Of a DNA stretch of 64,000 nt, positions 6,302 to 50,218 are shown piece by piece. How positions within the stretch are numbered: the stretch's first letter is position 1; the number at the start of each line of letters is the position of its first letter. The DNA lies in assembly GCA_027622655.1 (NCBI GenBank), contig JAQBYI010000014.1, positions 1-64,000 of the forward strand, given 5' to 3'. Below the pieces are notes generated by a model. That model searched no databases. It worked only from the letters and a program-made list of their open reading frames with translations, and was not told where the DNA came from. A program made the translations under genes and the position numbers. Source of the DNA: Gemmatimonadota bacterium. Its GTDB lineage: Bacteria > Gemmatimonadota > Gemmatimonadetes > Gemmatimonadales > Gemmatimonadaceae.

Positions 6302-6350
6302 AGGCCCTCCACGCATTCGCGGGCAGCGACGGCAAGTGCGATGCCGGGCA

Positions 6351-7592: not shown

Positions 7593-7595
7593 ACC

Positions 7596-8858
7596 CTATT
7601 CATACCTAAGCGCATCCACCGGGTCGAGTCTCGACGCCTTCAGCGCCGGCAGCGTGCCGAACACGATCCCGGTGAGCGCTGCCGCGGCGAGGGCTGCGGC
7701 GATAGCAGACGGCGGGACAGCCGCTGGAATTGACGTGTTGGCCCGGATGATCGCCGCGATCCCGGCGCCAATCGCCAAGCCGATCCCGGCGCCGATGCTG
7801 GTCATCGTCGCCGCCTCAATCAGAAACTGCCAGAGCACTGTCGCGCGTGTGGCGCCGAGCGCCTTCCGTACCCCGATTTCCCGGGTACGCTCCGTGACGC
7901 TGATCATCATGATGGCCACGACGCCTACGCCACCCACGAGGAGGCCAACCGCGGATAGTGCGAGCCCTACGAGGAAGATCGCGCCAAAGAGCTGGTCGAA
8001 CAACTCGAGCATGCGATCTTGCCCAACGATGGCGAAGTTGTTCGGCTGACTCGGGCGCAGGCCGCGCCTCGATCGCATCAGCGCGGTCACGGCATCCATT
8101 GCCACATCGGGGCTGACGTCAAGACGTGGCTTGACCATGATTAGCAGCGACCGCCAGACGTCGAGGTGGCGCCACGCTGTGAGCATCGGAATGATGGCGC
8201 GCGGCTTGTCGGGTCCGCGGCCGTCCATCGACTTCATGAACCCGGCCTTCGTATGGAAGACGCCGATTACGGTAAAGAGGCGTCCGTCGACGGTGACTTC
8301 CTTTCCGATTGGATCGGAATCGCCGAAGAGTTGGGCCTGCAGCGAGTCGTTGATGACGACAACGTTCGTGCCGGCATCGTGCTCCGCCTTGGAGAACGAG
8401 CGTCCGGGGGAAATGTCGGCCTGGTCAGTCAGGATCCAGTCTTCACTCTGGGCGTCGAATCCGACCGACTTGATTTCGCGGCTTCGGTAGCGAAAGGTGG
8501 CGGAACCACCGATCCATGCAGTTGCCGTCTGCACTTCCGGGAGTCGCCGGACCGCGTTCCAATCCTCGATCACGAGGCTGGGGTTCCGACGGTCGGTGCA
8601 GGTGTCGTCGCTGCCATCGCACGCGTTGATCCCGATGTTGCGGCGCCGGAGCTGAAAGGTGTTGGCACCAAACTCATCCAGATCGCTCTTGAAGCTGTTT
8701 TCGATTCCGGTAACCGTGGCACCCATGGCAACCACGACGAATACTCCGACGGCGACGCCGGAAATGGTCAACGCAGCGCGAGCCTTGTTCGCGCGCATGG
8801 CGTCGAGCGCGATAGTCACGCCCTCGAGCGACATCTTGATACTGTCCCAGAGTCGCAT
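7596..8858 (-). CDS. MacB-like ABC transporter permease, subfamily 2 (copy D)
   Basis: A 420-aa permease starting MRLWDSIKMSLEGVTIALDA, closely similar to copy B. It has an N-terminal helix, a periplasmic domain and a C-terminal three-helix bundle with the MISVTERTREIGVRKALGA loop. Just after the first beta-strands the periplasmic part contains NACDGSDDTC, a Cys pair also seen in copy B and absent from copy F. A longer reading frame extends upstream, but this ATG matches its paralogues and leaves only 2 nt to the stop of copy C, as expected in this operon. Confidence 0.92.
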   Translation of the reverse strand: MRLWDSIKMSLEGVTIALDAMRANKARAALTISGVAVGVFVVVAMGATVTGIENSFKSDLDEFGANTFQLRRRNIGINACDGSDDTCTDRRNPSLVIEDWNAVRRLPEVQTATAWIGGSATFRYRSREIKSVGFDAQSEDWILTDQADISPGRSFSKAEHDAGTNVVVINDSLQAQLFGDSDPIGKEVTVDGRLFTVIGVFHTKAGFMKSMDGRGPDKPRAIIPMLTAWRHLDVWRSLLIMVKPRLDVSPDVAMDAVTALMRSRRGLRPSQPNNFAIVGQDRMLELFDQLFGAIFLVGLALSAVGLLVGGVGVVAIMMISVTERTREIGVRKALGATRATVLWQFLIEAATMTSIGAGIGLAIGAGIAAIIRANTSIPAAVPPSAIAAALAAAALTGIVFGTLPALKASRLDPVDALRYE

Positions 8859-8860
8859 CG

Positions 8861-10099
8861 CTACTCCTGCCTTAGCGCGGCGATTGGATCGAGCCGCGCC
8901 GCGCGACTCGCCGGGTAGGCTCCGGCTGCAATGCCGACACCAGCACCGACGACCAGTCCGAGGACGACTGACCACGGCGCGACGGCGGCCGGGAGCGGGG
9001 TCGTCGCGGCGATAATCTGGGAGCCCGCGATTCCCAGCGCGATCCCGATGGCCGCGCCCAGGACCGACAGCGTCGATGCCTCAACCAGGAACTGCGACAT
9101 GATGTCGCGCCGACGTGCGCCGAGTGCCTTGCGTACGCCGATCTCGCGTGTGCGCTCGGCCACCGCCACGAGCATGATGTTCATGATGACCATGGCGCCG
9201 ACAATCAGGCCTATGGCCGGCAGAGCCGCGCCGAACACCACGAGACGCTGCTTGAGAGACGCGAAAAATTCGAGCGCCGAATCCTGCGTCTCGAGCTCGA
9301 AGTTGTCGCTCTCGCCGGGCCGGACGTGCCGGGAGGCCCGTAGCACTCCGCGTACGGACTCGATTCCTTCGCGCACCAGCTCCTGGCTGGGTGCCTGCAC
9401 CACGATCGAAAGGATGTCGCCGGCCGGGCGGAGGGCACGCTGGAGAGGCGTCGTATACGGAGCGATCGCAAGGCGGTCCATCGAGAAGCCGAATACCGAC
9501 CCCTGTTTCTCGATTACGCCGATGACGATATACGGAATGCCCCTGATTCGCAGCTCACGGCCGACCGGATCAAGATCAGCGTAGAAATACTCGGCGACCT
9601 CGACGCCAATGACGATGACCTTTGCTCCAGCTGCAACTTCCTGCGGCTGAAAGGCGCGTCCGTTGGCGATGCCGAACTTTTTGATCGTGAAGTAATCGGC
9701 TTCCGTTGCGACAGCCTGAACCTGCCGCGGCCGCCTGTCGTTGGTGGAGGCATAGAGAAAGTTTTCGCTCACGATAGCGCTGCGACTTCCCGGGGGAAGT
9801 GCAGCGTTCACGACGGCGGCGTCGTTCACATAAAAACGGGGCCGGCGCAGGTATTCGCGCCACATCTCGTCGGTCGAGTTCGGATTGAAGTTCGCCGCGC
9901 GTCGAACCGTAAACGTGTTCACGCCGATGATCTTTGCAGCGAAGTCCTCTTCGACGTACCGGCCCATTCCCTCAACAATCGAGATCACGGCGATGAGGAA
10001 CATCACGCCAATGGTGACGCCGATCAGGGTAAAAAAGCTCTTGAGCTTTTGGACGCGCAGTGTGGTGAGCGCGAGCCGAACAGCTTCGAGAAAGGGCAT
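8861..10099 (-). CDS. MacB-like ABC transporter permease, subfamily 1 (copy C)
   Basis: A 412-aa permease beginning MPFLEAVRLALTTLRVQKLK, almost the same N-terminus as copy A. It has the typical first helix (SFFTLIGVTIGVMFLIAVIS), then GMGRYVEEDFAAKIIGVNTF, a MacB periplasmic core, and three C-terminal helices with AERTREIGVRKALGARRRD. The ending DPIAALRQE is shared in type with copy A. It lies 2 nt upstream of copy D and 73 nt downstream of copy B. Confidence 0.92.
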   Translation of the reverse strand: MPFLEAVRLALTTLRVQKLKSFFTLIGVTIGVMFLIAVISIVEGMGRYVEEDFAAKIIGVNTFTVRRAANFNPNSTDEMWREYLRRPRFYVNDAAVVNAALPPGSRSAIVSENFLYASTNDRRPRQVQAVATEADYFTIKKFGIANGRAFQPQEVAAGAKVIVIGVEVAEYFYADLDPVGRELRIRGIPYIVIGVIEKQGSVFGFSMDRLAIAPYTTPLQRALRPAGDILSIVVQAPSQELVREGIESVRGVLRASRHVRPGESDNFELETQDSALEFFASLKQRLVVFGAALPAIGLIVGAMVIMNIMLVAVAERTREIGVRKALGARRRDIMSQFLVEASTLSVLGAAIGIALGIAGSQIIAATTPLPAAVAPWSVVLGLVVGAGVGIAAGAYPASRAARLDPIAALRQE

Positions 10100-10172
10100 G
10101 ACACCACTACGGGCGCGCCCTGCTGTCGGTTTCGGCAGTCTCTTCGGGTGGCCGGGTCGTGCCGGGCCCGGG

Positions 10173-11441
10173 TTACTCGTGCCGGAGGGCCTCGACGGGG
10201 TCGAGTTTGGCGGCCTTCATGGCCGGCATCATGCCGAACAGGATGCCGGTGATCGCGCTCATTCCCAGAGCGGCGGCCACGGCGAGCGGCGGCACCGATG
10301 CCGCGATCGGCGTAAAGTTTTTCACGGCGAGTGCGACAACCCATCCAAGCGCCAGGCCGATCATTGCACCAGTCGCGGTCAGCGTCACGGCTTCAACCAG
10401 AAACTGCCATAGGATTGTCGCCCGGGTGGCGCCAAGCGCTTTACGGACACCGATTTCGCGGGTCCGCTCAGTAACCGAAATCAGCATGATCGCCACGACG
10501 CCTACGCCGCCTACGAGCAAGCCGACCGACGAAAGCGAGATCATGACCAGGAAGAACATCCCGAAAACGCTGTCATAGACCTCGAGCAACCGGTCCTGCG
10601 TGATGATGGCGAAATTCGATTCACGCGACGGGCGGAGTCCGCGGGAGCCGCGCAGTGCCGCGGTCACGTCATCCATGGCGACGTCTGGTCGCACGCCGTC
10701 GGCAGGCTTCACGACGAGCCCCACCCCCCGTATCCGTGCACCCAGATGGCGCGTAAGTGAAAGCACAGGCATCACCACTCGCGGGCGCTCCGGGCCCGAC
10801 AGGAAGCTGGTGGCGTCCTTGTAAACGCCGATGACGAGGAAGGGACCGCCGCGCGTGCTCCCGGAGGCTATTAGGTTGATTTCCTTGCCTTCTGCGGGCT
10901 CGCCGTTGAACAGACGCTCAGCGGCCACGGTATTGATGACGATGACGCGCGACGCGGTCCGTGCTTCCTGGTCCGTAAAGACGCGACCTTCGACCATTTC
11001 TGGCGGGTTGATCTGCGCCCAGTTTGCAGACGTCCCGAGGGCGCTGACCGAGGCGAGGTAGCGGTCGCGGAACTTGGCAGACGCCGACCACCCTTGTTGG
11101 ACGCCAACCTGCGCGATGCTCTCAAGTTTCTCCAGCACTTCCACTTCGGGAAAAGTGATGGGCGGGTTGGAGCGCCAGCGACAGGTGTCGCCGGAATCGT
11201 CGCACGCCTCAAACACAATCGGGAAACGCTGCACAAAAAACGTCGTCGGCCCGGCCGACTCGAACTGTTGCGCTACGCTTTCGTTGATGCCGTGCACCGC
11301 AGCGGAAATGACAACGACGACGAAGACCCCGACCGCAACGCCGAGAATGGTAAGCCCGGCGCGGACCTTGTTCGCCTTCATCGCGTCGAAGGCGATTCCC
11401 ACGCCCTCGAGCGACATCCTGAGCCGGTCAAAGAACCTCAC
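10173..11441 (-). CDS. MacB-like ABC transporter permease, subfamily 2 (copy B)
   Basis: A 422-aa permease starting MRFFDRLRMSLEGVGIAFDA. The N-terminal helix is followed by a periplasmic domain that carries EACDDSGDTC, in register with the NACDGSDDTC of copy D, so a conserved disulfide or metal site is possible. The C-terminal helices and the ISVTERTREIGVRKALGA loop match copy D closely. It follows copy A by 2 nt, so A and B probably form one heterodimer. Confidence 0.92.
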   Translation of the reverse strand: MRFFDRLRMSLEGVGIAFDAMKANKVRAGLTILGVAVGVFVVVVISAAVHGINESVAQQFESAGPTTFFVQRFPIVFEACDDSGDTCRWRSNPPITFPEVEVLEKLESIAQVGVQQGWSASAKFRDRYLASVSALGTSANWAQINPPEMVEGRVFTDQEARTASRVIVINTVAAERLFNGEPAEGKEINLIASGSTRGGPFLVIGVYKDATSFLSGPERPRVVMPVLSLTRHLGARIRGVGLVVKPADGVRPDVAMDDVTAALRGSRGLRPSRESNFAIITQDRLLEVYDSVFGMFFLVMISLSSVGLLVGGVGVVAIMLISVTERTREIGVRKALGATRATILWQFLVEAVTLTATGAMIGLALGWVVALAVKNFTPIAASVPPLAVAAALGMSAITGILFGMMPAMKAAKLDPVEALRHE

Positions 11442-11443
11442 GG

Positions 11444-12688
11444 CTACTCCTGCCTCAGGGCGGTGACCGGATCAAGCAACGACGCACGGCTGGCCGGATA
11501 GACGCCGGAAACGATCCCAACGCCGGCGCCCACCAACACACCCACCATGATCGACCACGGAGCGACGTACGTCGGCATCGGTGTGGTGTTGCGGATAAGT
11601 AGCGCCAGCGCGGCGCCAGCTGCGATGCCGAGCGCTGCGCCGAACGTGCTTAGCGTGGACGCTTCGATGAGGAACTGTGCAAGGATGTCGCGCCGTTTGG
11701 CTCCCAGCGCCTTTCGAATCCCGATCTCGTGCGTACGCTCCGCTACCGCTACCAGCATGATGTTCATGATCACGATCGCGCCAACGACGAGCCCGAAGGC
11801 CGGGAGCGCGATCCCGGCGAGCACGAGGTACCCCTTGATCGTGTTCCAGAATTCAAGCGCACTATCGGCGGTCTGGAGCGAAAAATCATCCCTCTGCGCC
11901 GGGCGGAGCCCGTGTCGCGAACGCATCACCGCCCGGACGGTTTCCTGCACGTCGACCAGTTCCTCCGCCGACGGCGTCTGGATCATCATCGCATCAATTG
12001 CGTTCGCCTCTCGGTTGAGAGCGCGGTGGACCGGCGAGCGGAAAGGAGCGTAGATGTAGTTATCGAAAGAAATCCCAAACGCCTTGCCCAGCGACTCGCC
12101 GACGCCAATCACGTTGTACACCTTGCCGGCAATACGAACTTCGCGACCGACTGGATCGACGGTTGGGAAGAGCCGCTCAACGAGATCGGGACCGACGACA
12201 ACCGCGTTCGCTCCCAGGCTCAGCTCGCCGGCAGTGAATAGACGGCCGTTCGTGACGCCAATCCGTTTGATCTCGAAGAAGTCTCCGTCCACCGCTGTAA
12301 TCTGCGCGCGACGGGGCCGGGAAAAACTCGACTCGACGTTCAGGTTCGCCTCGGAGTACATCGCCCAGAGCGTCCCCTCCGGAAGCGCATCGGCAACGGG
12401 CTGGACGTCGGACTCGAGAATGCGCTGGCGGCGAGAGTACTCGAGCCGTGTCTCACGGTCAACGTCGCCAATCTGGATGTTCGGGCGATGACGCAGCTCG
12501 AACGAGTTGATCGCAATGAGCTTGCCGACCAGATCGTCCTCCATGTACCGCCCCATCCCGTCCACGATCGACACGACGGCTATCAGGAACATCACGCCGA
12601 TGCACACGCCAAGTGCGGTGAAGAAGCTCTTGAGCTTCTGCACGCGGATGGTGGTGAGCGCGAGGCGAATGGCCTCGAAAATGGACAT
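11444..12688 (-). CDS. MacB-like ABC transporter permease, subfamily 1 (copy A)
   Basis: A 414-aa permease, the first of the six, starting MSIFEAIRLALTTIRVQKLK. This internal ATG was chosen because it aligns with copies C and E; the upstream in-frame extension is Arg/Pro-rich and would overlap the ATPase gene. The protein has one N-terminal helix, a periplasmic MacB core, and three C-terminal helices ending DPVTALRQE. It is located 16 nt after the ATPase gene and most likely works with copy B. Confidence 0.92.
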   Translation of the reverse strand: MSIFEAIRLALTTIRVQKLKSFFTALGVCIGVMFLIAVVSIVDGMGRYMEDDLVGKLIAINSFELRHRPNIQIGDVDRETRLEYSRRQRILESDVQPVADALPEGTLWAMYSEANLNVESSFSRPRRAQITAVDGDFFEIKRIGVTNGRLFTAGELSLGANAVVVGPDLVERLFPTVDPVGREVRIAGKVYNVIGVGESLGKAFGISFDNYIYAPFRSPVHRALNREANAIDAMMIQTPSAEELVDVQETVRAVMRSRHGLRPAQRDDFSLQTADSALEFWNTIKGYLVLAGIALPAFGLVVGAIVIMNIMLVAVAERTHEIGIRKALGAKRRDILAQFLIEASTLSTFGAALGIAAGAALALLIRNTTPMPTYVAPWSIMVGVLVGAGVGIVSGVYPASRASLLDPVTALRQE

Positions 12689-12704
12689 CGCTGGCCTCGG
12701 CGGC

Positions 12705-13499
<795 letters not shown>

Positions 13500-13503
13500 G
13501 GCG

Positions 13504-14796
13504 TTATGGGCTCCCGGCCTTTTTCGTGTTGGCAGTGGTGGTCGCGCTCGGCGTCTCACGAACGAGCGTACCGTCCTTCAGCTCGCGAATCGCCTGGTAG
13601 GTGCCGGCGACGATCCGCTCGGTGCCATCCAGCCCGGAAATTACTTCGAAGTGCTTTTCTCCGGCGATCCCTACCTTTACGGGCTTGAAGGTCACTTTGT
13701 TGTCGGCGCCGACGACAAAGACACCCTCCACGTCCTTTCGTCCAACCTGCTTGGCCGGGGCCGGCCGTCCGGGAATCTGGGTCGTGTCCGCGTTCTTGAG
13801 CGCCTCGTCCTCGCGGACGGTGAGTGCGATGATCGGGATCGACAGCACCTGGGTGCGAGTGTCGGTAATGATTTTTGCCGTGGCGGAGAAGTCCGGCTTG
13901 GTATCCTTCGGCGGGTTGAGCAGGCGAATCGTCACCAGATAGTCGATCGCCTGATCGCCGGCCGCGGTCGCAGATGCGCCGCGCACCGAGCTGTTGGAAA
14001 TCTCTACGACGCGGCCGAGAAATGTCGTATCCGGAAACGCGTCGAGCTGGACGACCGCCGAGTCGCCGACCGAAATTCGCGAAACGTCGGTTTCGTCGAC
14101 CTTCACTTCCGTCTCAAGCACGCTCATGTCCGAGACCGTAAGCATCATGGCGGCGTCGCGGTTGAGCGTGCCCATGATAGCCGTTTCGCCCGACTCGATG
14201 TTGAGGCGAGTCACGCGGCCAGTCATCGTGGCAAAAATCCTCGTCTTGCCCAGCTGCACTTCGGCGTCCTTCAGGCTCGCCTGCGCTTGCTCGACGTTGT
14301 GCCGGGACGCTTCGACCATCGCCTGGTTGACATCGACCGAAGTCTTGAGTTGTTCGAGCTGCTCAACCGACACGAGGTTCGGATTGCTTTGGCGAATCTC
14401 CTGCGACCGTTCGTAGCTGTTGGTGGCCTGCTGCAGGTTGGCGGCCGACTGTGCTGCAGACGCCCTGGCGTTGGCAACACCTGCTGCGGCGCGCTGCACG
14501 GCGGCATCGTACTGCTGTGGGTCAATCTCGATGAGCAGCTGGCCCTTGGTCACCCAATCGCCTTCCTTCACGGCGAGATTCGTGATTTTGCCCGAAATGT
14601 CGGACGAGACATCGACCTTGGAATGCGGCGTAACCTGGCCGCTCGCCGTGACCGACGCGACGAGATCCTGCTTGGCGACAGTCTCGACTCGGACGTCCGT
14701 CGCTTTGTTGCTGCTCTTGGCGGCGCTCAGTGCTGCTATTGCGCCGATGCCGATAATGGCAACGCCGGCGACGACCCACTTGGTAGTCTTGCTCAT
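13504..14796 (-). CDS. MacA-like periplasmic adaptor (HlyD/RND membrane fusion family)
   Basis: A 430-aa membrane-fusion protein. An N-terminal anchor ([20 protein letters not shown]) is followed by the first half of a lipoyl domain ([18 protein letters not shown]), a coiled-coil hairpin rich in Ala/Gln (about residues 90-180), the second lipoyl half, a beta-barrel domain and a membrane-proximal domain. It would bridge the inner-membrane permeases to the TolC-like channel encoded 16 nt upstream. The Pro/Ala/Lys-rich insertion [14 protein letters not shown] near the C-terminus looks like a flexible loop. Confidence 0.93.
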
Positions 14797-14811: not shown

Positions 14812-16281
14812 TTAGCGGAGGGGGCGTCCGACGGCGCTTTCCAGCGCCGCGAACGATCTGTGAAACTCATACAGCGCGTCGATCCGGTCCGTTTCCGCCC
14901 GGTCGAAATCGGCGCGCGCCTGCTGCAAGTCAACAAGGCTGTTGAGCCCGACGCGGTAACGCTCTTGCGCGAGCTGAAGGGCCGTGCGCGCGGCCACAGC
15001 GTTTTGCTCCTGCAGGCGGAAGGCACGATAACCGGCCTGCAGCGTCGTCCATGCAGACGTCACATCGGTCGTGAGCCGGAGCTCTTGAGCGCGCACGCGG
15101 TACCTCGCATCCATTCGGTTCGCCGACGCGTCCTGAACCTGCGTTTCGCGCGAAAATCCGTCGAACAGCGGGAGCGATACGCCGATCGACAGATTGTACG
15201 GATTCGACGTGAACTTGAAGGGGAAGTTGCTGTTCTGGGCGCGCACCGCGTCGGCCTGAGCGTCGGTGAATGCGATTGAGCTGCACTGTGCCGTGATGCC
15301 GGAGAGCCCGGCACCTTGGCGAATCGAGTCGGTGGTGAAGCAGCTCGCGCGGCTTCCGGCGACTGACCCCAAGGCCTGATTCACCAGATACTCACCGTCC
15401 CTGAACTTCTGTGCAACGCCACCAAACGACGCGTTGGCGCTAATCGAGGGGAGGTAGGCACTTTGCGCCTGCCGGTACGTCAACTGTGCCACCTGCTCGC
15501 GCGCGCGAACTGCCTTCAGCGCCGGATTTCCGTCCTCTGCCATTTGCAGGAGCGTTGTGACGTTTAGCGCGGGTTCGGTGACCACGAACTGCGAAGTGAG
15601 CGACACGACCGCCGGTTTCTCCACGCCGATCTGCTGAAAGAGCTGGAGCATCGTCACTTCGGCGAGGTTCTGCGCCCGGAGTGCCGCGACTTGCTGCTGG
15701 CCGACGGCGACTTCGGCGCGCATCACGTCGAGCGACGTCGCGGCGCCCACACCGGCGCGTGCGCGAGCGAGATCCAGTTGAAGCTGGTTGGCGACCACGA
15801 GCGTGTCCTGAAGTGCTGCCCTGGCACCCGCCTGAAGCACCAGCAGGTACTGCTGCTGGACGCCGGCGACGAGCGCTTGCTCAGCGGCATTCACATCGGC
15901 GTCGGAGGCGGCCTCGTTCTGACGGCTCCGGCGCAGGTTCGTGAACGTCGACGCGCTGATGCCCAAGCTGAAATTCAGGCCCCACGACGACGACAGAATG
16001 TCTGAGTTCGCACCAAAAGCCACGCCGTTGAAGATCTGCGGGCGGCCTTGGCGGTAGCTCGTGCCAATGTTTGTCGACGCCGACGGGAGAAACGCACCGT
16101 AGGCATTCCGAACGGCGTTCTCGGCGCGCCGTCTGCCGTTCTGCGTTTCGAGAAAGGTCGGGTTGTTGCGCTTCGCGATTGAGATCGCCTCTTCGAGCGT
16201 CAGCGATGTGGGCACGGAGGTCTGTGCCGCAAGCGGGGAAGCGAGGGTCAGCGCAATGGCGGTCAACTTAAGCAGTCGCAT
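14812..16281 (-). CDS. TolC family outer membrane factor
   Basis: A 489-aa outer membrane efflux protein with a signal peptide (MRLLKLTAIALTLASPLAAQ). Two repeats follow, each giving the long alpha-helices and beta strands of TolC; the sequences SLTLEEAISIAKRNNP and RYRVGLNSLVDLQQARADF are characteristic. It is the first gene of the export operon read on the minus strand. A four-copy 11-nt repeat lies 85-140 nt upstream of its start, in the presumed promoter/leader. Confidence 0.93.
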   Translation of the reverse strand: MRLLKLTAIALTLASPLAAQTSVPTSLTLEEAISIAKRNNPTFLETQNGRRRAENAVRNAYGAFLPSASTNIGTSYRQGRPQIFNGVAFGANSDILSSSWGLNFSLGISASTFTNLRRSRQNEAASDADVNAAEQALVAGVQQQYLLVLQAGARAALQDTLVVANQLQLDLARARAGVGAATSLDVMRAEVAVGQQQVAALRAQNLAEVTMLQLFQQIGVEKPAVVSLTSQFVVTEPALNVTTLLQMAEDGNPALKAVRAREQVAQLTYRQAQSAYLPSISANASFGGVAQKFRDGEYLVNQALGSVAGSRASCFTTDSIRQGAGLSGITAQCSSIAFTDAQADAVRAQNSNFPFKFTSNPYNLSIGVSLPLFDGFSRETQVQDASANRMDARYRVRAQELRLTTDVTSAWTTLQAGYRAFRLQEQNAVAARTALQLAQERYRVGLNSLVDLQQARADFDRAETDRIDALYEFHRSFAALESAVGRPLR

Positions 16282-16430: not shown

Positions 16431-17105
16431 TCAGTCGCGCAGCGCGACGAGCCCGAGGGACGGAATTGCCGCTTTAATTATGCGTCCGTCCATCGTTATC
16501 CAGACGTCCCGAATCTCGCCCGTCGCGGTCGTTTGCAATGTCAAGTGCACGGTGTCGAATCGCCGCAGGTCGATGGAGATTCGCTCCGTGCCAACCCGTT
16601 GAATGATAACGGATTCCACCGTGTTGCGTCGCGGCACGAGCACGGGAACGATCGCCCCAGCGCCGCGCCGGGAAATGAACCAGAGTTGGTGTATGATGTC
16701 GTCGTCGGCCGCCACAGCGCCGGTGGGCAACCTGAACTCACGTGCCGATTCGCCACCGGGGAGCAGAAGGCGTGACGAAAAACGTCCGCGCACCGCTTGA
16801 CCGCTGTACGACTCCAGAACCTTCCCGCTGTCCCGCACCTCGCGTTGATAACTGGCCGGGAATCCGGTCGTGTCGGCGTTGATCCCCGGTGCGATCCGGC
16901 GCGTGCCGATCGCCACAGTCGCTTGTGCTACCAGTGTCGGGCCGTCGGGGCCCGGCGCGGTACGAATCGAAAAATCCTCGCGGCCAATCCGCTCGCCGTC
17001 CTTGTAGAGCGTAAAGCTCCCCTCGTCCAGCACCACGACCTGCGCCCCGGAAGGGCGAGCGACCAGCGCGAGCGCGAGGACAAGGCATAGGGACAATCGT
17101 GGCAT
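16431..17105 (-). CDS. Secreted protein of unknown function
   Basis: A 224-aa protein with a signal peptide (MPRLSLCLVLALALVARPSGA). The mature part is predicted beta-rich: GSFTLYKDGERIGREDFSIR, then alternating strands and a C-terminal TGEIRDVWITMDGRIIKAAI. The shape resembles DUF3108/DUF6134-like periplasmic proteins, which begin with a similar YxDGKxIG strand, but I cannot assign a family firmly. It is divergent from the NtrY-like kinase, with about 40-60 nt between them, so the two may share a regulatory region. Confidence 0.75.
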   Translation of the reverse strand: MPRLSLCLVLALALVARPSGAQVVVLDEGSFTLYKDGERIGREDFSIRTAPGPDGPTLVAQATVAIGTRRIAPGINADTTGFPASYQREVRDSGKVLESYSGQAVRGRFSSRLLLPGGESAREFRLPTGAVAADDDIIHQLWFISRRGAGAIVPVLVPRRNTVESVIIQRVGTERISIDLRRFDTVHLTLQTTATGEIRDVWITMDGRIIKAAIPSLGLVALRD

Positions 17106-17146
17106 TCACGAAAGCTAGTCGCTTCGCGTTCGTGTCCCGTCGGGCG

Positions 17147-20100
17147 ATGAGAGGGTATTATCCCCTAGTGACCGGACCTCCGACGCGCCGATGGGCAGTT
17201 GCTGCTGCGGCGACGCTGATACTGGGCGTCGCGTGGCTGCGCACGGGCGTGCCGGTGTTTCTGGTGTTGACTGCAGTGGGCGCTCTGGTGACGGGCGTGG
17301 CGACTTGGCGTGTGAGGCCGAAGGCAGCGGCCGGAACATGCGCCGCGCTGCTTATCGCTTTCGCTGGATTTGAAGGGCTAGGCGCGCGGCGCATGAGTCG
17401 GTTTTCGGCCGACCCCGACTCCGAAATGCTGGCACTCCAGGTCCGCGCCACAGCGGCGCTCGCTGAGCGACTGCAGGGAGAAGCAGACGGCCTTCGGAGG
17501 TTGGCCGTACAGGCACTCGACGTGCCGGCGAGCCCGGCCGCTGCATTTGCCGCTCTCGAGGAGCTGCGATCGGGCGACGGCGTGCGGGCGATCGTGCTCG
17601 CGCGCGGCGGTTCACTTGCGGCGTGGTCGGGGCACTACGTGGCTCCGGTCGATTCGTTGCCCGGGCCGGTAGGCGTCGTGGCCACGGAGTTCTATCTGGT
17701 TCTCTACGCAATTGCCGGGCGCGATCGCGACCGGGCCGTGGCCACAGCGCTGGTTCACGCCGAGCCACCGGCCGAAGTGCTGGCGGAGGCGCTCGACGGC
17801 GGGATCGCTGAGGCGTTCGATGTGGCCGGATTCACGTACTCCCGACCGGGGTCGGGGGCGGACTCCGTGGGCGTAGTCACCGCGGCCGGAGTGCCAGTTC
17901 TGGCCGTGCGGGCGATTGCGCTCGGCGCGCCCGCGCTGCGGCAGCGATTGAGTGAGCGGGGCCGCGAACGCGGGGCGGCGCTGATTGCGCTCGCACTCAT
18001 TGCATTCCTCGCCGCGACGTGGCGCAGCGGCGAACTCGCGGAGCGGTTTGGCGCGCTCGGCGTGACGCTTGCCATGCTGGCGACGCTGCCGCTGGCGGAT
18101 TTGTCGAATCGAACGCCGCTGTTCAATCCGGCGTTCTTCTTTGCGCCGGCGGGCGGTGCGTTGACGGGGAGTATTGGTGCTCTGGCGCTGACATCGGCCA
18201 CGGTGCTTGTCGCTGTACTGGCTGCGCAGCGCGCTCAGCTTTTTCCGCGGCGCGCGTGGCAGGCCGGTGTCGTGATCGTAACGTTGGCGGCGGCCGGTCC
18301 GTTCCTTCTTGGCGCCATCGCCCGCGGTATCAGGTTTCCGGCAACAGGCGCACCGGTCGTTTTGTGGCTGGCGTGGGAAACAACGGTGTTCCTCGCCGCA
18401 CTAGTGGTGTTGTATGCCGGACTCTCAGCCGGCGAAGCCGCCCTCGGGCGCCGTCGCGGACTTCCATTGTGGCTGCCGCCAGTTCTCGCGGCGGCTGCAG
18501 CCGGGCTCGCCCCACTCGTCGTGCAGCCACGCGGCGGCCTTCCGTCGTGGTACACGGTTCTTTGGGTGGTCACTGCGATTGCCATGGCGCTCGCGCGACA
18601 CGACCGACGGTCGCTGTGGGCAGCTGCCACCGTTGCGGCTTTTGGATCGAGCGCCCTCGTCTGGAGCGAGACTGTCAAGGCGCGCGTACTGCTCGCGGAG
18701 CAGGATGTCGCGGCGCTCGGCGTGCCCGATCCCGCGTCTGGCGCGCTCATCACGCGGTTTCCGCAACATCTCGATTCGAACACCGCACCACGATCGCGAG
18801 TTGAACTGCTCGCGCGATTTGCCGGGTCGGATCTTGCGAGCAGCGAACTGCCGGTCAATGTCACGGCTTGGACGGCGACCGGCACCGTAATGGCCGACCT
18901 GCGTGTGGGTATGGGGCCCGGGAGCGCCAGCGGCATCGAGTTTTTCGCGCTCGAAGCCGCCGACAAGATGCAACCCGTACTCACCAACTATCCCGGCGAG
19001 CCGGGAATGTTGACTATTCTCGCGATTCCGCACGCCGATCGCACGGTCACCACCGTCGTCGTGGCACCGCGCACGCGGCTCGTGACGCCGGATCCGTTTC
19101 CGACGTTGTCCGGGCTCGGGCGAACGCGTGACGCCGGTGGCGAGCCGCCGTACACGCTGCAGTACGTACCCGCGCCGCTGTCGCAGTACATCTCGACCGA
19201 GGCCGAGTGGACCTCGCGGAACGAAGAGTTGCATGGCGACTGGTTCCTTCCGCCGACGCGGGGAACGGTGATGCACGTACACGCACGCGTGCCGCTTGCC
19301 GGTATTGGGGCGTTGACGACACGCGGCGCGCTGATGGTGTGCGCGAACCTCGGCTTGCTCGGTTTTCTATGGCTTCTCATCGTCGTATCCGACGGCGGCG
19401 CGCTCAGATGGTTGCGCGACGAAGCGAGGCCGTGGTTGCGCAGTTATCGGGCGCGCCTCACGCTGTCGTTGTTTGCCGCCTTCATGATTCCGGCTGCCGC
19501 GTTCGCAGCCTGGAGTTACGGACGGCTGCAGGATGAGGATGCCGAAACACGCACACTTCTCGTTCGAGAAACGCTGCGTGGTGTCACGGCTGCTCCGGCG
19601 AACGAGCTCGACAGTCTCGCAGCTCGCTTCCAGACACCGCTGATGCTGTTTGCCAACGGTACGATGGTTCAGACGAGCGACGTGCTCCTTGATGCGTTGG
19701 CTCCCCTTGGGCGGCTCCTCCCCGCGACGGCCGCCCGCGCGCTCATCGAAGACGACGACGGATTCGCAACGGCTGAGATTTCGGTTGGCGGCGAACCCAT
19801 CCGTTTCGGTTTTCGGGTCGTGAACGACACTGCATCGGCAGCCAGTCTTGTTCTCGCCGCGCCGGCTCGCACGGTGGAACTCGCGCTCGATCCGCGTCGG
19901 CGCGATCTCGCGTTCTTCGTACTCTTTGCGACGCTCGCGGGCGCGCTCGGTGCGCTCTGGGTCTCCGGTGTTGCGGGTCGCACGTTTTCCAGGCCAATCG
20001 GTGAACTCCGCGCCGGTGCGCTCGCGCTCGCCGCCGGTGAGCGTGAGCCGCAACTTGCCGGCAATCCACCGCTGGAGTTCGAACAGGTTTTCAACGCGTT

Positions 20101-20827
20101 CCGGCAAATGGCGCGCGACCTCGAGTCTGGCCGCGCGCGAGACGCACGAGCGCAACGGGTGCTTGCGTGGGGAGAAATGGCGCGCCAGGTGGCCCACGAA
20201 ATAAAGAATCCGCTCACGCCAATGCGCCTTGGCGTACAGCATCTCCAGCGGGCGAAGGACGACCCACGCGTGGACTTTCGGAAAGCGTTCGACGAAAACG
20301 CCGTGCGCCTGCTCAGCGAGATTGACCGGCTCGATGAAATCGCGCGAGCCTTCAGCCGATACGGCGCGGCGCCCGAAGCACAGCCGCCCGCCATCCCGGT
20401 GGACATCGCCGAAGTTGTCCGCGACGTCGTGCGCCTCGAACGGCTTGGCGGTGACGCGGTTGCGTGGGAGCTCGAAGGCGCCGATGCGCCCCTATTTGCA
20501 ATGGCACGCCCCACGGAACTACGGGAGGTGCTGCTGAACCTGCTCGAAAATGCCCGGTTCGCGGAGGCGCGCCACGTCGTGGTACGGATCGAGATAGCCC
20601 AGACCGCAACGAGGATATCGGTCACCGACGACGGACACGGGATCTCCGCCGACGCCATGCCGCGCGTCTTTGAGCCGCACTTCTCGACGCGCACGAGCGG
20701 TAGCGGAATGGGGTTGGCGATCAGCCGGCGCGTGATCGACAGTTGGGGCGGCGCGATTGCCGTGGCAAGCACCCCAGGTTCGGGTGCGACCGTGACGATC
20801 TCACTGGTTCCCGCTGCTACCGGCTGA
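17147..20827 (+). CDS. Large NtrY-like sensor histidine kinase
   Basis: A roughly 1226-aa membrane kinase. The N-terminal half has many hydrophobic segments: two near the start, a soluble loop, then a multi-helix block around residues 280-510. A second extracytoplasmic region, another helix pair, and a HAMP-like linker (FSRPIGELRAGALALAAGE) follow. The HisKA motif QVAHEIKNPLTPMRL has the phospho-accepting His at about 1017, and the HATPase domain has N, G1 and G2 boxes (LLNLLENA, DDGHGIS, GSGMGLAI). HEIKNPLTP is typical of NtrY. The start is uncertain: ATG 17147 or GTG 17168. A matching NtrX-type regulator lies 30 kb away at 50215. Confidence 0.9.
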   Translation: MRGYYPLVTGPPTRRWAVAAAATLILGVAWLRTGVPVFLVLTAVGALVTGVATWRVRPKAAAGTCAALLIAFAGFEGLGARRMSRFSADPDSEMLALQVRATAALAERLQGEADGLRRLAVQALDVPASPAAAFAALEELRSGDGVRAIVLARGGSLAAWSGHYVAPVDSLPGPVGVVATEFYLVLYAIAGRDRDRAVATALVHAEPPAEVLAEALDGGIAEAFDVAGFTYSRPGSGADSVGVVTAAGVPVLAVRAIALGAPALRQRLSERGRERGAALIALALIAFLAATWRSGELAERFGALGVTLAMLATLPLADLSNRTPLFNPAFFFAPAGGALTGSIGALALTSATVLVAVLAAQRAQLFPRRAWQAGVVIVTLAAAGPFLLGAIARGIRFPATGAPVVLWLAWETTVFLAALVVLYAGLSAGEAALGRRRGLPLWLPPVLAAAAAGLAPLVVQPRGGLPSWYTVLWVVTAIAMALARHDRRSLWAAATVAAFGSSALVWSETVKARVLLAEQDVAALGVPDPASGALITRFPQHLDSNTAPRSRVELLARFAGSDLASSELPVNVTAWTATGTVMADLRVGMGPGSASGIEFFALEAADKMQPVLTNYPGEPGMLTILAIPHADRTVTTVVVAPRTRLVTPDPFPTLSGLGRTRDAGGEPPYTLQYVPAPLSQYISTEAEWTSRNEELHGDWFLPPTRGTVMHVHARVPLAGIGALTTRGALMVCANLGLLGFLWLLIVVSDGGALRWLRDEARPWLRSYRARLTLSLFAAFMIPAAAFAAWSYGRLQDEDAETRTLLVRETLRGVTAAPANELDSLAARFQTPLMLFANGTMVQTSDVLLDALAPLGRLLPATAARALIEDDDGFATAEISVGGEPIRFGFRVVNDTASAASLVLAAPARTVELALDPRRRDLAFFVLFATLAGALGALWVSGVAGRTFSRPIGELRAGALALAAGEREPQLAGNPPLEFEQVFNAFRQMARDLESGRARDARAQRVLAWGEMARQVAHEIKNPLTPMRLGVQHLQRAKDDPRVDFRKAFDENAVRLLSEIDRLDEIARAFSRYGAAPEAQPPAIPVDIAEVVRDVVRLERLGGDAVAWELEGADAPLFAMARPTELREVLLNLLENARFAEARHVVVRIEIAQTATRISVTDDGHGISADAMPRVFEPHFSTRTSGSGMGLAISRRVIDSWGGAIAVASTPGSGATVTISLVPAATG

Positions 20828-20841
20828 CACCTTTCATAACG

Positions 20842-22581
20842 ATGGCGAACGACGATTTCCTTGGACCGGTCCGCCAGACGACCGGCATTCCTGCCCACCT
20901 CGCGGGCTGGCAGTTGCCACCCGACTGGCAATGGGGCGATACCGGCCTGCTGATCAACCATCGGCACATCCAGGAAATCCGCGATTCGCTCGATCGTTCG
21001 TTGGCGCTCCTGACGGTTACCGATCCAACATTCGAAGCTTGGCTCTTCAGCGAGGCAAAGCAGCTCGCGAGCCGAAACCACCCCGCGATTCCCACTACAT
21101 ACCACTACTGGAGCGGACGGGAGGGGTACCGCCGGGGACCGGGATACCTCCGACGGTGGATCACCGGCGATACGCTGGGCGCGCGCATGCGACGCCTCGG
21201 CCCGGATACCGTGCCGTACATGTTGCGTGTGTTGCGCGCCGCCGGTTCAGCATTGGCGTACCTGCACGACGGCTCTGGCGTGCATGGCGCCATCTCGCCC
21301 GATTCGGTGTACGTCACCCCGACCGGACGCGTCTGGCTGCTGGGGTGGTCGTGGGCGGTCCCACACGCCGACATTCCCGTTGGCGTCACTCCCGACCCGC
21401 GCTGGACGCCGACGCCAGCAGAATGGGGCGCCGGACAGTGGAATCCGACAAGGGAAAGCGACCAGTGGCAGCTCGCCGCTGTCTGCTTTGCGATGCTTAC
21501 CGGCGAGCTCCCGCCGCGAACTGAGATCCCACCGGTTCGCTGGGCGCGCCCCGATTGTCCGTCGAATGTCGCCGACCTGCTCGACCGTGCGCTGTCGGAG
21601 AATCCCGCCGATCGATTTCACTCCGTAGCGTCGCTGTTGCATGCCATCGAAAAGATTTCGTCCACCGGCGGTTCTGCGATGACGGGGCACGAGGTTGCGT
21701 CGGGTGAGTTTATGTCGATGAACGAAGAGCAGCGAATCCGGTGGGCCACCGGCGACGAGTACGAAGTGCTGTCGTCGCTCGGTTCGGGAACGTTCGGCTC
21801 TGTGTGGCGTGTGCGCGACCTCACCCTTCAGCGCGAAGTCGCGCTCAAGATGCTCCACCCGATGGTGGCGCGAAGCGAGGATGCAGTCGCCCGCTTCCAG
21901 AAGGAGGCTCAGCTCGCGGCGCGCCTCCAGCACCCGGCCATCGTGCCGATCTATTCGTGGGCGCAGAAGGGCGGTGTCCATTGGTACGTCATGGAGCTTG
22001 AGGACGAAGGCTCTCTGGCCGATCTGGTCCGGCGCCAAGGCCCGAGGCCACTCGATGAGGTGGCGCCCCAGGTCGCATTCATACTCGACGGCTTGATTGC
22101 AGCGCACCAGAACGGGATCATCCACCGCGACCTCAAGCCCGAAAACATTCTGCTTAGCCGCTACCGCCACTGGCGCATCGCCGATTTCGGAATCGCGTCG
22201 GCGCTGGGCGACGACCGCACTGGGAGCAGCGGCACGCCAGCGTTCGCACCGCCCGAGCAACTACTCGGAGAGCCTCAGGGAGTATCGGCCGACCTGTTTG
22301 CCCTCGCGGCAATCGCGTGCTTTGCGCTCACCGGGCGGCCGCCATTCGACGCGGCCGACGGGCGCGCGATCCTCTCACTCCAACTCGCCGGCAAGCCCAA
22401 CCTCTCAGGTATTCCGGAGGACCTGCGCGACTGGTTCAAGCGCAGTCTCTCGGCCGATCCCGACAAGCGGTTCGCGGACGGTGAAGAAATGCGCGACGCG
22501 TGGAACGATGCCGTCGAACCGCTGATCGAGAATCACGCAGACCGCCCGTTCGCCGAGCGGATCCGCCAGCTGTTTCGGTAG
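20842..22581 (+). CDS. Ser/Thr protein kinase with an N-terminal pseudokinase domain
   Basis: A 579-aa soluble protein. The C-terminal part (about 305-560) is a complete Hanks-type kinase: glycine loop GSGTFGSVW from 314, Lys336, HRDLKPEN at 428-435, DFG at 448-450. The N-terminal part (about 30-270) has the same overall pattern but is degraded: HGAISPDSVYV (His148) replaces the HRD loop, LLGWSWA stands where DFG should be, and the activation segment is followed by ESDQWQLAAVCFAMLTGELP, the usual helix-F region. No transmembrane segment is seen. It starts 14 nt after the histidine kinase gene, so the two are probably co-expressed. Confidence 0.93.
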   Translation: MANDDFLGPVRQTTGIPAHLAGWQLPPDWQWGDTGLLINHRHIQEIRDSLDRSLALLTVTDPTFEAWLFSEAKQLASRNHPAIPTTYHYWSGREGYRRGPGYLRRWITGDTLGARMRRLGPDTVPYMLRVLRAAGSALAYLHDGSGVHGAISPDSVYVTPTGRVWLLGWSWAVPHADIPVGVTPDPRWTPTPAEWGAGQWNPTRESDQWQLAAVCFAMLTGELPPRTEIPPVRWARPDCPSNVADLLDRALSENPADRFHSVASLLHAIEKISSTGGSAMTGHEVASGEFMSMNEEQRIRWATGDEYEVLSSLGSGTFGSVWRVRDLTLQREVALKMLHPMVARSEDAVARFQKEAQLAARLQHPAIVPIYSWAQKGGVHWYVMELEDEGSLADLVRRQGPRPLDEVAPQVAFILDGLIAAHQNGIIHRDLKPENILLSRYRHWRIADFGIASALGDDRTGSSGTPAFAPPEQLLGEPQGVSADLFALAAIACFALTGRPPFDAADGRAILSLQLAGKPNLSGIPEDLRDWFKRSLSADPDKRFADGEEMRDAWNDAVEPLIENHADRPFAERIRQLFR

Positions 22582-27326: not shown

Positions 27327-27523
27327 GCCGGACTCCCGCCAGAACCAGCTATCAGGTGAGAATCCCGGGTTCCCCGCTGGCGCCACAGACCAAGAGTGTC
27401 CTGATTCGGACCACTTGAACAGGCCTCACTCTGGCGAGCGTGAGCAGGAACTCGTAACCTGTGCGGCTAGTCTGTAAATGTCGGTTCTCCTCGCCCTCCC
27501 CTCGCCATGTGGCAGGCGAACGA

Positions 27524-28051
27524 ATGAGGCTGCAGAAGTGGCTTCGCGTGCCCGAGATGGTGGGCGTTGGTGCGCATGCGCTTGGCGCATCGCGCCGCGC
27601 GCGGCGACATAGCGCGTTTACCCTTATCGAGATGACGGCGGCGATGGTCGTGATTTCGGCCCTCACGGGCATCGCGCTGCCGCGGCTCCACCGCGTGCTC
27701 GAACAAGCCAAGATCGTTCAGGCCGTTGGCGAAATCCAGACTATGCTTACTGAGATTGGGAATCTGGAGGATCTGCCCACGTCGCTCGCAGCCATCAAGC
27801 GCGCCAGCTTCCGCGATCCATGGGGCAATCTGTACGTGTATTACAAGTTTCCACCGGATCCCTTGAATGGCAACGCCCCGCCTGCCGGTGCGCGGCGGGA
27901 CCGGTTTTTGGTGCCGGTCAACTCCAAGTTCGACCTCTACAGCATTGGCAAAGACGGGAAGACTGCGGTCGCATTCACAGCTAATGACGCCCGTGACGAT
28001 GTCGTTTGTGCCAGCGACGGCGCGTACGTCGGGCTCGCCTCCAAGTTTTGA
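27524..28051 (+). CDS. Orphan type II secretion/type IV pilin-like pseudopilin
   Basis: A 175-aa protein with a basic leader of about 31 residues and a prepilin N-methylation site, SAFTLIEMTAAMVVISAL, with Phe32 as the new N-terminus and Glu at +5. Residue -1 is Ala rather than the usual Gly. The C-terminal DPWGNLYVYY and FDLYSIGKDGK stretches are those of GspG-type major pseudopilins. No other secretion or pilus gene is nearby. The start could be another Met further downstream in the leader. The stop is 5 nt before the HD-GYP gene, so they form one operon. Confidence 0.85.
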   Translation: MRLQKWLRVPEMVGVGAHALGASRRARRHSAFTLIEMTAAMVVISALTGIALPRLHRVLEQAKIVQAVGEIQTMLTEIGNLEDLPTSLAAIKRASFRDPWGNLYVYYKFPPDPLNGNAPPAGARRDRFLVPVNSKFDLYSIGKDGKTAVAFTANDARDDVVCASDGAYVGLASKF

Positions 28052-28056
28052 AGCCC

Positions 28057-30099
28057 ATGCGATTCCCGATTCCTCTCACGCTCCAGACGAAGGTGGGTCG
28101 GCGCATCGCGCTGTTGTTCGTCGTGAGTGCGCTTCTGCCGGTTGCCGTTCTCGCCGTCGAGGGCTATCGGCAGGTAAGGGGCCAGCTGGTGGCACAGGCG
28201 ATGGCGCAGCTCGCTCAGGCAGCCAAGCGTGTTGGCATGGAGCTGGTTGAGCAGCTGAGCGGCGCGGACGTGACACTGCGTGGAGTCGTCGGTGAACTCG
28301 ATCGCGGCCGTTGGCGGCAGCAAGACGACGTCATGAGCGATCCACTGATTCGTCGGGTTTTTTCGTCGCTCGCCATTGTCGATCCCTCCAGCCCGCGAAT
28401 CTTGTGGGGCGAGCCGCCCAACATGCTGCAGCTGTCGCCCGAAGAATTGCTCCGGCTGGGTGGCAATCAGTCTGTGCTCGCGGTCGATTCGGCCGGAGCC
28501 GCCGTCTGGCTCGTCGCGAAACTCGCAGGCGGTGGACAGCTCTGGGCCAACGTTGACCGTACGTTCCTGTTTCGCGGTGTTTCCGACCGCGCGCGCATCG
28601 GCGATGCCGATGTGCAACACTGCGTGCGTACCGCGAGTTCGGCGATTCTGTTGGCTTGCCCGGCCGGGCCGAACCTGGACACGAATCTCTCCGCGCAGTG
28701 GGACGTGTTCCTTGGCTATGCCTTCGGGGCAGCTCCGTGGCAAGTCGAGGTGGGGCAGCCGATTTCCGCCGCGCTGGATCCGATCAAGACGTTTCGGCAG
28801 ACGTTCATGCTGAGCATGGTCGCGGTGCTGGCGCTCGTGGTTTGGCTGAGCAGCGTCCAGGTACGGCGCAGCCTCCAACCGCTCACGGCGCTCGGCGATG
28901 GCACACGCCGGCTCGCCCAACGGGACTTCACCGGAACCGTCTCGGTATCGAGTGGTGACGAGTTCGAGGAGCTGGCGGGGTCGTTCAACTCGATGACTCT
29001 GGAGATGGACAAGCATTTTCGCACGATGGCGGCGGTTCACGCGATCGACAAGTCGGCACTCAGCGCAGCGCGGCCAGAGGAAGTCGCGGCCACCGCCGCC
29101 AGCCGGATGCGCGGGGTACTGCGCTGTGCGAGCGTCGAAGTGTTTGTGGCCGGCGAGCGGCCCGATGACGGGTGGCGGTGCATACACGCGTCCAATAGCG
29201 CGGCCCCGGCCGGCGGAACGGTGCGACTCACTGCGGCAGATCGGGACCGCCTCCTTAAGGCAACTGGCTTATGGACGAACGGCGAGGTCGATGGTCCGGA
29301 ATGGTTCGGGCAGCCCCAGAACGGCCCAGTTTCAATGCTTCCCTTGGTCAGCCACGAGGAGCTCGTTGGAGTAGTCGCGATGCGCGGCGCTGCGCCCGCG
29401 CAGGGCGACGGGATGCACATTGCCCGGCAGCTCGCGGATCAGCTCACCGTTGGACTTTCCAACGCGAGACTGATTACGCGCCTGAACGGTCTCAGTTACG
29501 GCGCACTCTCAGCACTCGCGCGCACGGTGGACGCCAACTCACCGTGGACGGCCGGGCATTCGGAGCGTGTGACGGCGCTGAGCCTGCGACTCGCCATTCG
29601 CCTCCAGCTACCCTTAGAGGAACTGCATACGCTCTACCGCGGAGGATTGCTCCACGACATCGGCAAGATTGGCGTGCCGACGTACATCCTGGACTTGGCC
29701 GGTCCGCTTTCGTCCGACGAGCTCACGCAGATGCGGAGGCATCCCGAACTCGGTGCGAAGATCCTCGCGCCGATCGCCGCGTTTGCCGATGCCGTCCCAA
29801 TCGTGCTCTACCACCATGAGCGGCTCGACGGAGCCGGATATCCCGCGGGGCTCAAGGGGAGCAACATTCCATATCTGGCGAGACTGTTGAGCGTTGCGGA
29901 TGTCTATGATGCGCTCGTGTCGGACCGTCCGTATCGGATCGGTGTCCAGACCGCGCTTGCCGTGGAGATGATCGTCGCGGACGCCGGCGCCGGATTTGAG
30001 CCGGCGATGGTTGATGCCTTCGTGGCGGTCATGGCGGACGAAGGTGACGAGGCTCGGTTTGCACAACCACCGCGCGAACTGTCGGAGCTGCTCAGATGA
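28057..30099 (+). CDS. Membrane HD-GYP domain protein, probable c-di-GMP phosphodiesterase
   Basis: A 680-aa protein with a transmembrane helix near residue 30, a periplasmic sensor domain, and a second helix (FMLSMVAVLALVVWL). A HAMP segment, a GAF-like region and a C-terminal HD-GYP domain follow. The metal-binding HDIGK is at about 533-537 and HHERLDGAGYP at about 586, matching active HD-GYP phosphodiesterases that cleave cyclic di-GMP. It is placed between a pseudopilin and a small membrane protein, which it overlaps by ATGA (30096-30099). Confidence 0.93.
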   Translation: MRFPIPLTLQTKVGRRIALLFVVSALLPVAVLAVEGYRQVRGQLVAQAMAQLAQAAKRVGMELVEQLSGADVTLRGVVGELDRGRWRQQDDVMSDPLIRRVFSSLAIVDPSSPRILWGEPPNMLQLSPEELLRLGGNQSVLAVDSAGAAVWLVAKLAGGGQLWANVDRTFLFRGVSDRARIGDADVQHCVRTASSAILLACPAGPNLDTNLSAQWDVFLGYAFGAAPWQVEVGQPISAALDPIKTFRQTFMLSMVAVLALVVWLSSVQVRRSLQPLTALGDGTRRLAQRDFTGTVSVSSGDEFEELAGSFNSMTLEMDKHFRTMAAVHAIDKSALSAARPEEVAATAASRMRGVLRCASVEVFVAGERPDDGWRCIHASNSAAPAGGTVRLTAADRDRLLKATGLWTNGEVDGPEWFGQPQNGPVSMLPLVSHEELVGVVAMRGAAPAQGDGMHIARQLADQLTVGLSNARLITRLNGLSYGALSALARTVDANSPWTAGHSERVTALSLRLAIRLQLPLEELHTLYRGGLLHDIGKIGVPTYILDLAGPLSSDELTQMRRHPELGAKILAPIAAFADAVPIVLYHHERLDGAGYPAGLKGSNIPYLARLLSVADVYDALVSDRPYRIGVQTALAVEMIVADAGAGFEPAMVDAFVAVMADEGDEARFAQPPRELSELLR

Positions 30100-49550: not shown

Positions 49551-50218
49551 TGTTTGGCTGCATCGGACGGATCGTCGTTCTCGCGGTGCTGCTGTTGGTT
49601 GGTGGCGCGGCGTACGTGACACGCGCCCGGTGGGAGCCGACCGTGCGCGCACGACTGGGAATGCGGGCGCGACGCCCTCCACCGGCTCCTACGTGGCAGC
49701 CGATCACTCCCGAGGGCGCCGTGCGGATCCGCGCGTCGCTCGATTCACTGCGGCGGCCGGCCGGGCCGGCATTCGTGAACGTCGAAGCAGCGGACCTCGT
49801 TGCGTTCGCCATCGGGCCCGTCATGCGCACGCTCGCGCTGGCTCAGGATTCGGGGACCCGCCCACAGGCACGTGCGGCCGAGAATCTCCTGCTCGTGCGG
49901 GGAAGTGTTCGCATTTCTGATCTTGGTGGCGCGGCCGCGCTTGGACCGCTGGCGGGCGTGCTCGAGGGAACTCAGCGAATCGAACTGCGCGGGCGTGTTG
50001 AAGTGCCGGCACCCGGCAAGGCAGTGTTCATTGTGACCCGAATCGCCATCGGCGAACTGGCGCTGCCCACGATCGCGATCGGTCGTGTGGTTCAGCAGCT
50101 CGCGCCGCGCAGCGACTCCGCGCAATCCGAGGACGCGGTGGCTCTGACGCTGCCGCCGGAGATCGCCGATATCCGCCTCACCCGTGGCCGCGTGACGTTG
50201 TACAAGGGTGGCAAGTGA
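49550..50218 (+). CDS. Membrane-anchored protein of unknown function
   Basis: A 222-aa protein with one N-terminal helix (IGRIVVLAVLLLVGGAAYVT), a Pro/Arg-rich linker and a domain of about 150 residues with alternating strands: LVRGSVRISDLGGAAALGPL, RIELRGRVEVPAPGKAVFIV and LPPEIADIRLTRGRVTLYKG. No family is recognised; the C-terminal half resembles a small beta-sandwich like those of the LmeA/DUF2993 type, but this is weak. It lies between larE and ntrX with overlapping ends on both sides (GTGA at 50215-50218). Confidence 0.72.
   Translation: MFGCIGRIVVLAVLLLVGGAAYVTRARWEPTVRARLGMRARRPPPAPTWQPITPEGAVRIRASLDSLRRPAGPAFVNVEAADLVAFAIGPVMRTLALAQDSGTRPQARAAENLLLVRGSVRISDLGGAAALGPLAGVLEGTQRIELRGRVEVPAPGKAVFIVTRIAIGELALPTIAIGRVVQQLAPRSDSAQSEDAVALTLPPEIADIRLTRGRVTLYKGGK

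Follow-up and report, generated by a model that had tools for sequence, protein, structure and literature searches.

The window analyzed here is a 64,000-nucleotide stretch of a Gemmatimonadota genome (assembly GCA_027622655.1, contig JAQBYI010000014.1). On its forward strand, an ATG-initiated gene at positions 20842–22581 encodes a 579-residue protein with two kinase domains in tandem. The stop codon of the preceding forward-strand gene ends at 20827, which leaves a gap of exactly 14 nt, as originally described. This preceding gene (17099–20827) encodes a giant membrane histidine kinase (HK) of 1242 amino acids with HAMP, HisKA, and HATPase_c domains by Pfam and about 16 hydrophobic peaks in a crude Kyte-Doolittle scan. 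Beyond the HK, an efflux operon runs divergently on the reverse strand. It comprises a 224-residue protein of no assigned family (16431–17105; Pfam and blast) that is conserved with the HK, a TolC-type outer membrane efflux protein (OEP, 14812–16281), an HlyD/MacA-type membrane fusion protein (13504–14796), an ABC transporter ATPase (12705–13559), these three assigned on Pfam, and six MacB/FtsX-type permeases in tandem (5045–12754; genes at 5045, 6351, 7596, 8861, 10173, and 11444). Three of the permeases were identified on Pfam and the other three through blast matches in common with those.

The original prediction called the HK NtrY-like. NtrY proteins combine HAMP, PAS, HisKA, and HATPase domains, and a cognate NtrX gene lies alongside. 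The giant HK shares the HAMP, HisKA, and HATPase_c domains, but it has no PAS domain on Pfam at E 0.1, and the neighbors of the HK/kinase pair that were run on Pfam included no response regulator and no adjoining NtrX-type regulator. The name is thus loose. An orphan NtrC-type response regulator is encoded at 50215–51582 on the forward strand and may be the HK partner. Of eight outgroup loci, one (L282) has a close relative of this regulator about 3.9 kb past the HK, and we therefore treat the regulator as a weak candidate only. Elsewhere in the window, 28006–30099 encodes a protein with HAMP and HD (HD_5) domains, possibly a c-di-GMP phosphodiesterase, adjoining a pilin-like gene (27461–28051).

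We asked what fold the N-terminal half of the tandem protein adopts. Searched alone, the N-terminal 280 residues gave no Pfam match at E 0.1. Comparison with PDB sequences by phmmer retrieved PknA (7.7e-14) and PknB (3.1e-11), and a search of the protein's own genome returned 26 further places at E ≤ 1, the best at 9.3e-11. An AF2 model of residues 1–283 reached a mean pLDDT of 80.2 and a pTM of 0.78. Aligned on PknB (2fum), it gave a Z score of 26.6 and an rmsd of 3.0 over 243 residues, and Foldseek placed PknA on top (3.4e-16), in a listing from which the absence of a fold family is no ground for its exclusion. The alignment behind the model had 51 rows (the window protein, one ortholog, and 49 kinase domains from other organisms); because these rows were kinases, the model adds weight to the evidence from sequence but is no substitute for it. 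It covers the N-terminal domain alone, so that contacts between the two halves lie outside its scope. A model of the whole protein from a two-row alignment was equally poor for both domains (pLDDT 32.4). Structure prediction thus returned the kinase fold that had been expected rather than a different one, and by its sequence relatives the N-terminal half is a Hanks-type kinase domain.

This domain (residues 36–275, positions 20947–21666, delimited by phmmer, the AF2 model, Foldseek, and structure alignment) lacks all three catalytic residues in the window protein. Alignment places HGA at the HRD position (residues 148–150, 21283–21291) and GWS at the DFG position (residues 168–170, 21343–21351), within the segments HGAISPDSV and LLGWSWA that the original prediction had singled out. 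The beta3 lysine, which it did not mention, is also gone and is replaced by Leu57 (21010–21012). Loss of at least one of the beta3 Lys, the HRD Asp, and the DFG Asp marks a pseudokinase, and the N-terminal domain is one. The C-terminal half (residues 307–545, 21760–22476; located on Pfam and by alignment) matches PF00069 at E 5.5e-46. The hydropathy maximum of the whole protein in a 19-residue scan is 1.75, located in the kinase C-lobe, and the scan showed no prominent transmembrane segment. On the best reading, the tandem protein would be a soluble, cytosolic Hanks-type Ser/Thr kinase with a catalytically dead N-terminal kinase domain.

To follow these features across relatives, we aligned 60 family sequences: the window protein, L001, and 58 of 60 fetched proteins, with two diverged paralogs kept separate. 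The beta3 Lys position is occupied by Val, Ile, or Leu in all 60. The HRD Asp is gone from 58 pseudokinases and present in two; HG stands in place of HR in 58/60. The DFG Asp is gone from 59 and present in one, and Trp169 occupies the DFG Phe position throughout (60/60). Several other pseudokinase residues, the alphaC Glu71, HRD His148, Glu194, Asp207, and Arg258, are present in every sequence. Conservation extends to the N-terminal extension (residues 17–32, 20890–20937, from the family alignment), where P17, H19, W23, L25, P26, W29, W31, and G32 are kept in at least 59/60. In the second domain, the G-loop, K336, E355, HRD (428–430), N435, and DFG (448–450) are invariant in the 60 sequences. 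The C-terminal half was originally described as complete, and it is, by its motifs, a complete Hanks Ser/Thr kinase domain that is predicted to be active.

A sister family, f2 (20 sequences), also carries the tandem protein, whose pseudokinase shows a decay pattern of its own. Its second domain is equally intact: the G-loop, beta3 Lys, alphaC Glu, HRD, Asn, DFG, and APE Glu are present in 60/60 family and 20/20 sister-family sequences. In its pseudokinase, RR replaces RD in 20/20, the DFG Asp is retained in 20/20, and the presumed beta3 Lys position, an assignment that rests on a two-residue register shift judged by eye, holds Arg in 19/20 and His in one. An atypical nucleotide-dependent activity of the N-terminal half, like that of SelO or SidJ, would find its support in this retained Asp and this Arg. 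Every sequence of the window's family, however, has lost the beta3 Lys and has Trp at the DFG Phe position, and nearly all have lost both Asp residues; such an activity is accordingly quite unlikely.

The loss of all three catalytic motifs could also mean that the N-terminal half is a functionless duplicate in decay. Its sequence conservation speaks against this. On average, family members are 58.4% identical in the pseudokinase and 65.1% in the kinase, and 48 positions of residues 36–275 are conserved in at least 59/60 sequences. Among 30 pairs that are more than 80% identical, dN/dS ranged from 0.029 to 0.26 for the pseudokinase (median about 0.13) and from 0.029 to 0.21 for the kinase (median about 0.12); the ratios, from our own Nei-Gojobori script, are rough because dS was often near 1, and the medians were taken by hand. 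Because its dN/dS resembles that of the kinase half, the pseudokinase half is maintained, not decaying. Purifying selection acts on it as strongly as on the live domain, and a decaying duplicate is so improbable that we give it almost no weight. The conservation of the domain in homologs, on which the original prediction had staked itself, is thus found.

The linker between the two domains is short, and the fusion is preserved in both families. Just before the kinase, linker residues E296, R298, R300, A302, D305, and Y307 are conserved. We considered this motif as a coupling element common to both families and rejected it: because other kinases of the same genome bear a similar lead-in, the motif is non-specific.

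How widespread is the tandem protein? At E 1e-60 it has matches in 148/298 Gemmatimonadota genomes. These include 95 of the 103 that belong to the window's family (family totals were tallied from the match listing), where it is mostly single-copy. When 96 domains were placed in a tree, the kinases of the two families formed a single group (SH-aLRT 99), separate from 40 other kinase domains, and the two sets of pseudokinases fell on long separate branches. A single origin of the two sets is favored by the common tandem order and the full-length alignment. The pairing of pseudokinase and kinase is real and old. Two genomes of genus g12 carry second, diverged tandem copies (L176 and L177, 42–43% identical) with no HK adjoining. 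A separate case is an ORF of Thermoflavimicrobium dichotomicum (L003:7857–9575), in which two kinase domains occur in the order live then degraded; the second has HRE and DFS for HRD and DFG.

The original prediction likened the protein to JAK-type kinases and considered such pairs not usual among bacterial Hanks kinases. In JAK, the JH2-JH1 pair is a pseudokinase followed by a kinase. The tandem protein shares this order in one chain, and the likeness is of form only: nothing points to shared regulation, and JAK proteins are tyrosine kinases with FERM and SH2 domains, neither of which Pfam finds in the tandem protein, whose nearest matches are Ser/Thr kinases of bacteria. Tandem kinase-pseudokinases of plants (Yr15/WTK1 and others) have the layout in common, but in the plant sources as available they act in immunity and belong to a separate lineage. 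In bacteria, such pairs are nevertheless already on record: the available text of PMC12839542 describes PglW of Type-2 BREX and a subset of DndF as carrying an inactive Hanks kinase and then an active one in a single protein. Within open-licence PMC literature, we recognized no bacterial pseudokinase-kinase other than PglW/DndF. As far as these sources go, the tandem itself is already known in bacteria; what differs is a stand-alone soluble version beside an HK/efflux locus.

The order of the domains, which is that of PglW (PMC12839542, in the part available), raised the question of a defense protein of the PglW, DndF, or MAD6 kind. The PADLOC profile for PglW covers residues 128–558 in one stretch, and there is a weak match to MAD6 (NCBIfam NF047741), whose 168.1 bits fall well below the cut-off of 460. 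According to the same portion of PMC12839542, however, PglW carries its kinase domains between an N-terminal NERD nuclease and C-terminal HTH and iSTAND domains, spans 1400–1600 residues, and sits in defense loci. The tandem protein, unlike PglW, has 579 residues and kinase domains alone, with no NERD, HTH, or STAND domain, and lies in a conserved chromosomal HK/efflux locus; on Pfam at E 0.1 it matched kinase-like families only, with no NERD or other non-kinase domain. Its near-universal, mostly single-copy occurrence and fixed neighborhood within the family are unlike mobile defense islands, and its neighbors are HK and efflux genes. We regard a role in defense as very unlikely.

We also compared the N-terminal domain with other bacterial pseudokinases. 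The accessible part of PMC12599244 lists MviN/ActPs3, GLW, CP1, ActPs1-2, DYD, and DLHK as Hanks-fold pseudokinase families, several of which have lost all three motifs. Their motif patterns differ from ours, and in that part none is described as fused to an active kinase. The GLW pseudokinases have GLW for HRD and Leu or Trp at the beta3 Lys within a poly-Leu stretch (PMC12599244, same portion); the tandem protein instead has LGW at DFG, and HG at the HR of HRD in 58/60. The CP1 pseudokinases have a linked COG3899 ATPase domain, and the tandem protein shows no non-kinase domain by Pfam models.

We then examined the kinase neighborhood across genomes. The giant HK lies directly upstream of the tandem kinase, on the same strand, in 63/79 family loci (including L265, where a gap of −544 is owing to a late alignment start). 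In 11/79 it is convergent with the kinase and 1.4–1.7 kb off, and in 5/79 it is out of view. The co-location from which the original prediction drew a possible modulation of, or by, the two-component pathway is thus conserved, and because it is conserved in 63/79 loci, the linkage of kinase and HK goes beyond chance. Of the 63 loci with the HK directly upstream, 57 show efflux genes as well. We had expected the 11 rearranged loci to hold a response regulator between the two genes and dropped the idea: in the two that were checked (L141 and L142), the intervening gene encodes an aldehyde dehydrogenase.

Genus g13 (four genomes) and genome G048 have the HK and efflux genes without a recognizable tandem kinase. 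All three loci of genus g5 lack the giant HK, and the kinase adjoins the efflux operon; this suggests that the kinase is linked to the efflux operon as well as to the HK, from three genomes of one genus and possibly one event. Because each occurs alone, neither kinase nor HK strictly requires the other. Genomes G115 and G258 have neither, and contain ordinary kinases or shorter HKs only. In G033 and G200 both are present but apart: the HKs (L216, L217) are still with the efflux operon, and the kinases (L155, L168) lie elsewhere. At these two kinase loci, which belong to two genera, a gene of about 1050 amino acids with an AAA_16 domain lies near the kinase (L155:9860–13051 and L168:5104–8241).

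The HK itself has a wider distribution. Its N-terminal 960 residues are matched in 169/298 genomes. Efflux genes lie on its divergent side in 10/11 loci from the sister family or f3, and at least one gene of the efflux module is divergent from it in 8/8 outgroup loci (f4–f6). By gene order, the HK/efflux locus is class-wide and older than the HK's link to the tandem kinase. Most simply, the tandem kinase would have joined a pre-existing sensor/efflux locus in one family. Around the tandem kinase of the sister family, the giant HK does not adjoin in any of the 20 loci. In 7/20, the kinase lies beside one gene cluster, and in two of these seven, which were checked on Pfam, a divergent gene (L190:6077–8278 and L193:8775–10871) encodes an FHA-FHA-trypsin product. 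FHA domains bind phospho-Thr, as would suit the neighbor of an active Thr kinase.

A conserved gene order may come from co-transcription alone, with no physical coupling of the products. The pseudokinase might be just a substrate-docking or localization scaffold that leaves kinase activity unchanged, its proximity to the HK reflecting shared transcription. Bacterial scaffolding pseudokinases are known (EssB/YukC and MviN, in the available part of PMC12599244), HK and kinase are each found alone, and the tandem protein has no prominent transmembrane segment (maximum 1.75). The preservation of a short-linker fusion in both families fits direct coupling, though it is no proof of it. We judge the scaffold possible, with clearly less than an even chance.

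Taken together, the best explanation of the whole, to which we give about an even chance, is a pseudokinase-regulated Ser/Thr kinase that works with the sensor/efflux locus. What computation shows is the kinase fold and missing catalytic residues of the first half, the intact kinase of the second, purifying selection acting on each, and the conserved gene order. The pseudokinase would serve as a regulatory or docking module of the attached C-terminal kinase; it would recognize a component of the locus (the cytoplasmic part of the HK, its response regulator, or the exporter) and hold or release the kinase. The kinase would then phosphorylate Ser/Thr residues on the recognized component, and the outcome would be a second phosphorylation layer over export control. 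The fusion, its conservation, and the precedents make it rather probable that the dead half regulates the live half. Gene order makes it about equally probable that the partner of the kinase belongs to the sensor/efflux locus. That the output is export control is a more tentative proposal, which we hold at somewhat under even.

A bolder version has the pseudokinase as an intracellular receptor for the giant HK, whose activated cytoplasmic part would bind it and free the Ser/Thr kinase in a lineage-specific hybrid pathway in which the pseudokinase would play the part of JH2 in JAK. We consider this unlikely. If it were true, the HK signal would be converted directly into Ser/Thr phosphorylation, and the kinase of genus g5 would have been under other control since its HK was lost.

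A related system is known from M. tuberculosis. The genes for PknF and Rv1747 are adjacent, and the PknF system is not known to include a pseudokinase domain or an HK. In the available text of PMC6213207, PknF phosphorylates the ABC transporter Rv1747, and other Hanks kinases of bacteria are described that target two-component regulators or ABC exporters. The tandem-kinase locus likewise pairs a Hanks kinase with an ABC exporter and has a pseudokinase and an HK besides.

Bacterial pseudokinases are described as largely unexplored experimentally (PMC12599244, in the part available). The tandem kinase locus would make allosteric control by a pseudokinase and cross-talk between Ser/Thr and His/Asp phosphorylation addressable in one small locus, and the sister family offers natural variants in which other residues have been lost. 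Should the live kinase prove to be gated by the dead one, bacteria would use JAK-like logic as an ordinary part of signaling, beyond defense proteins.
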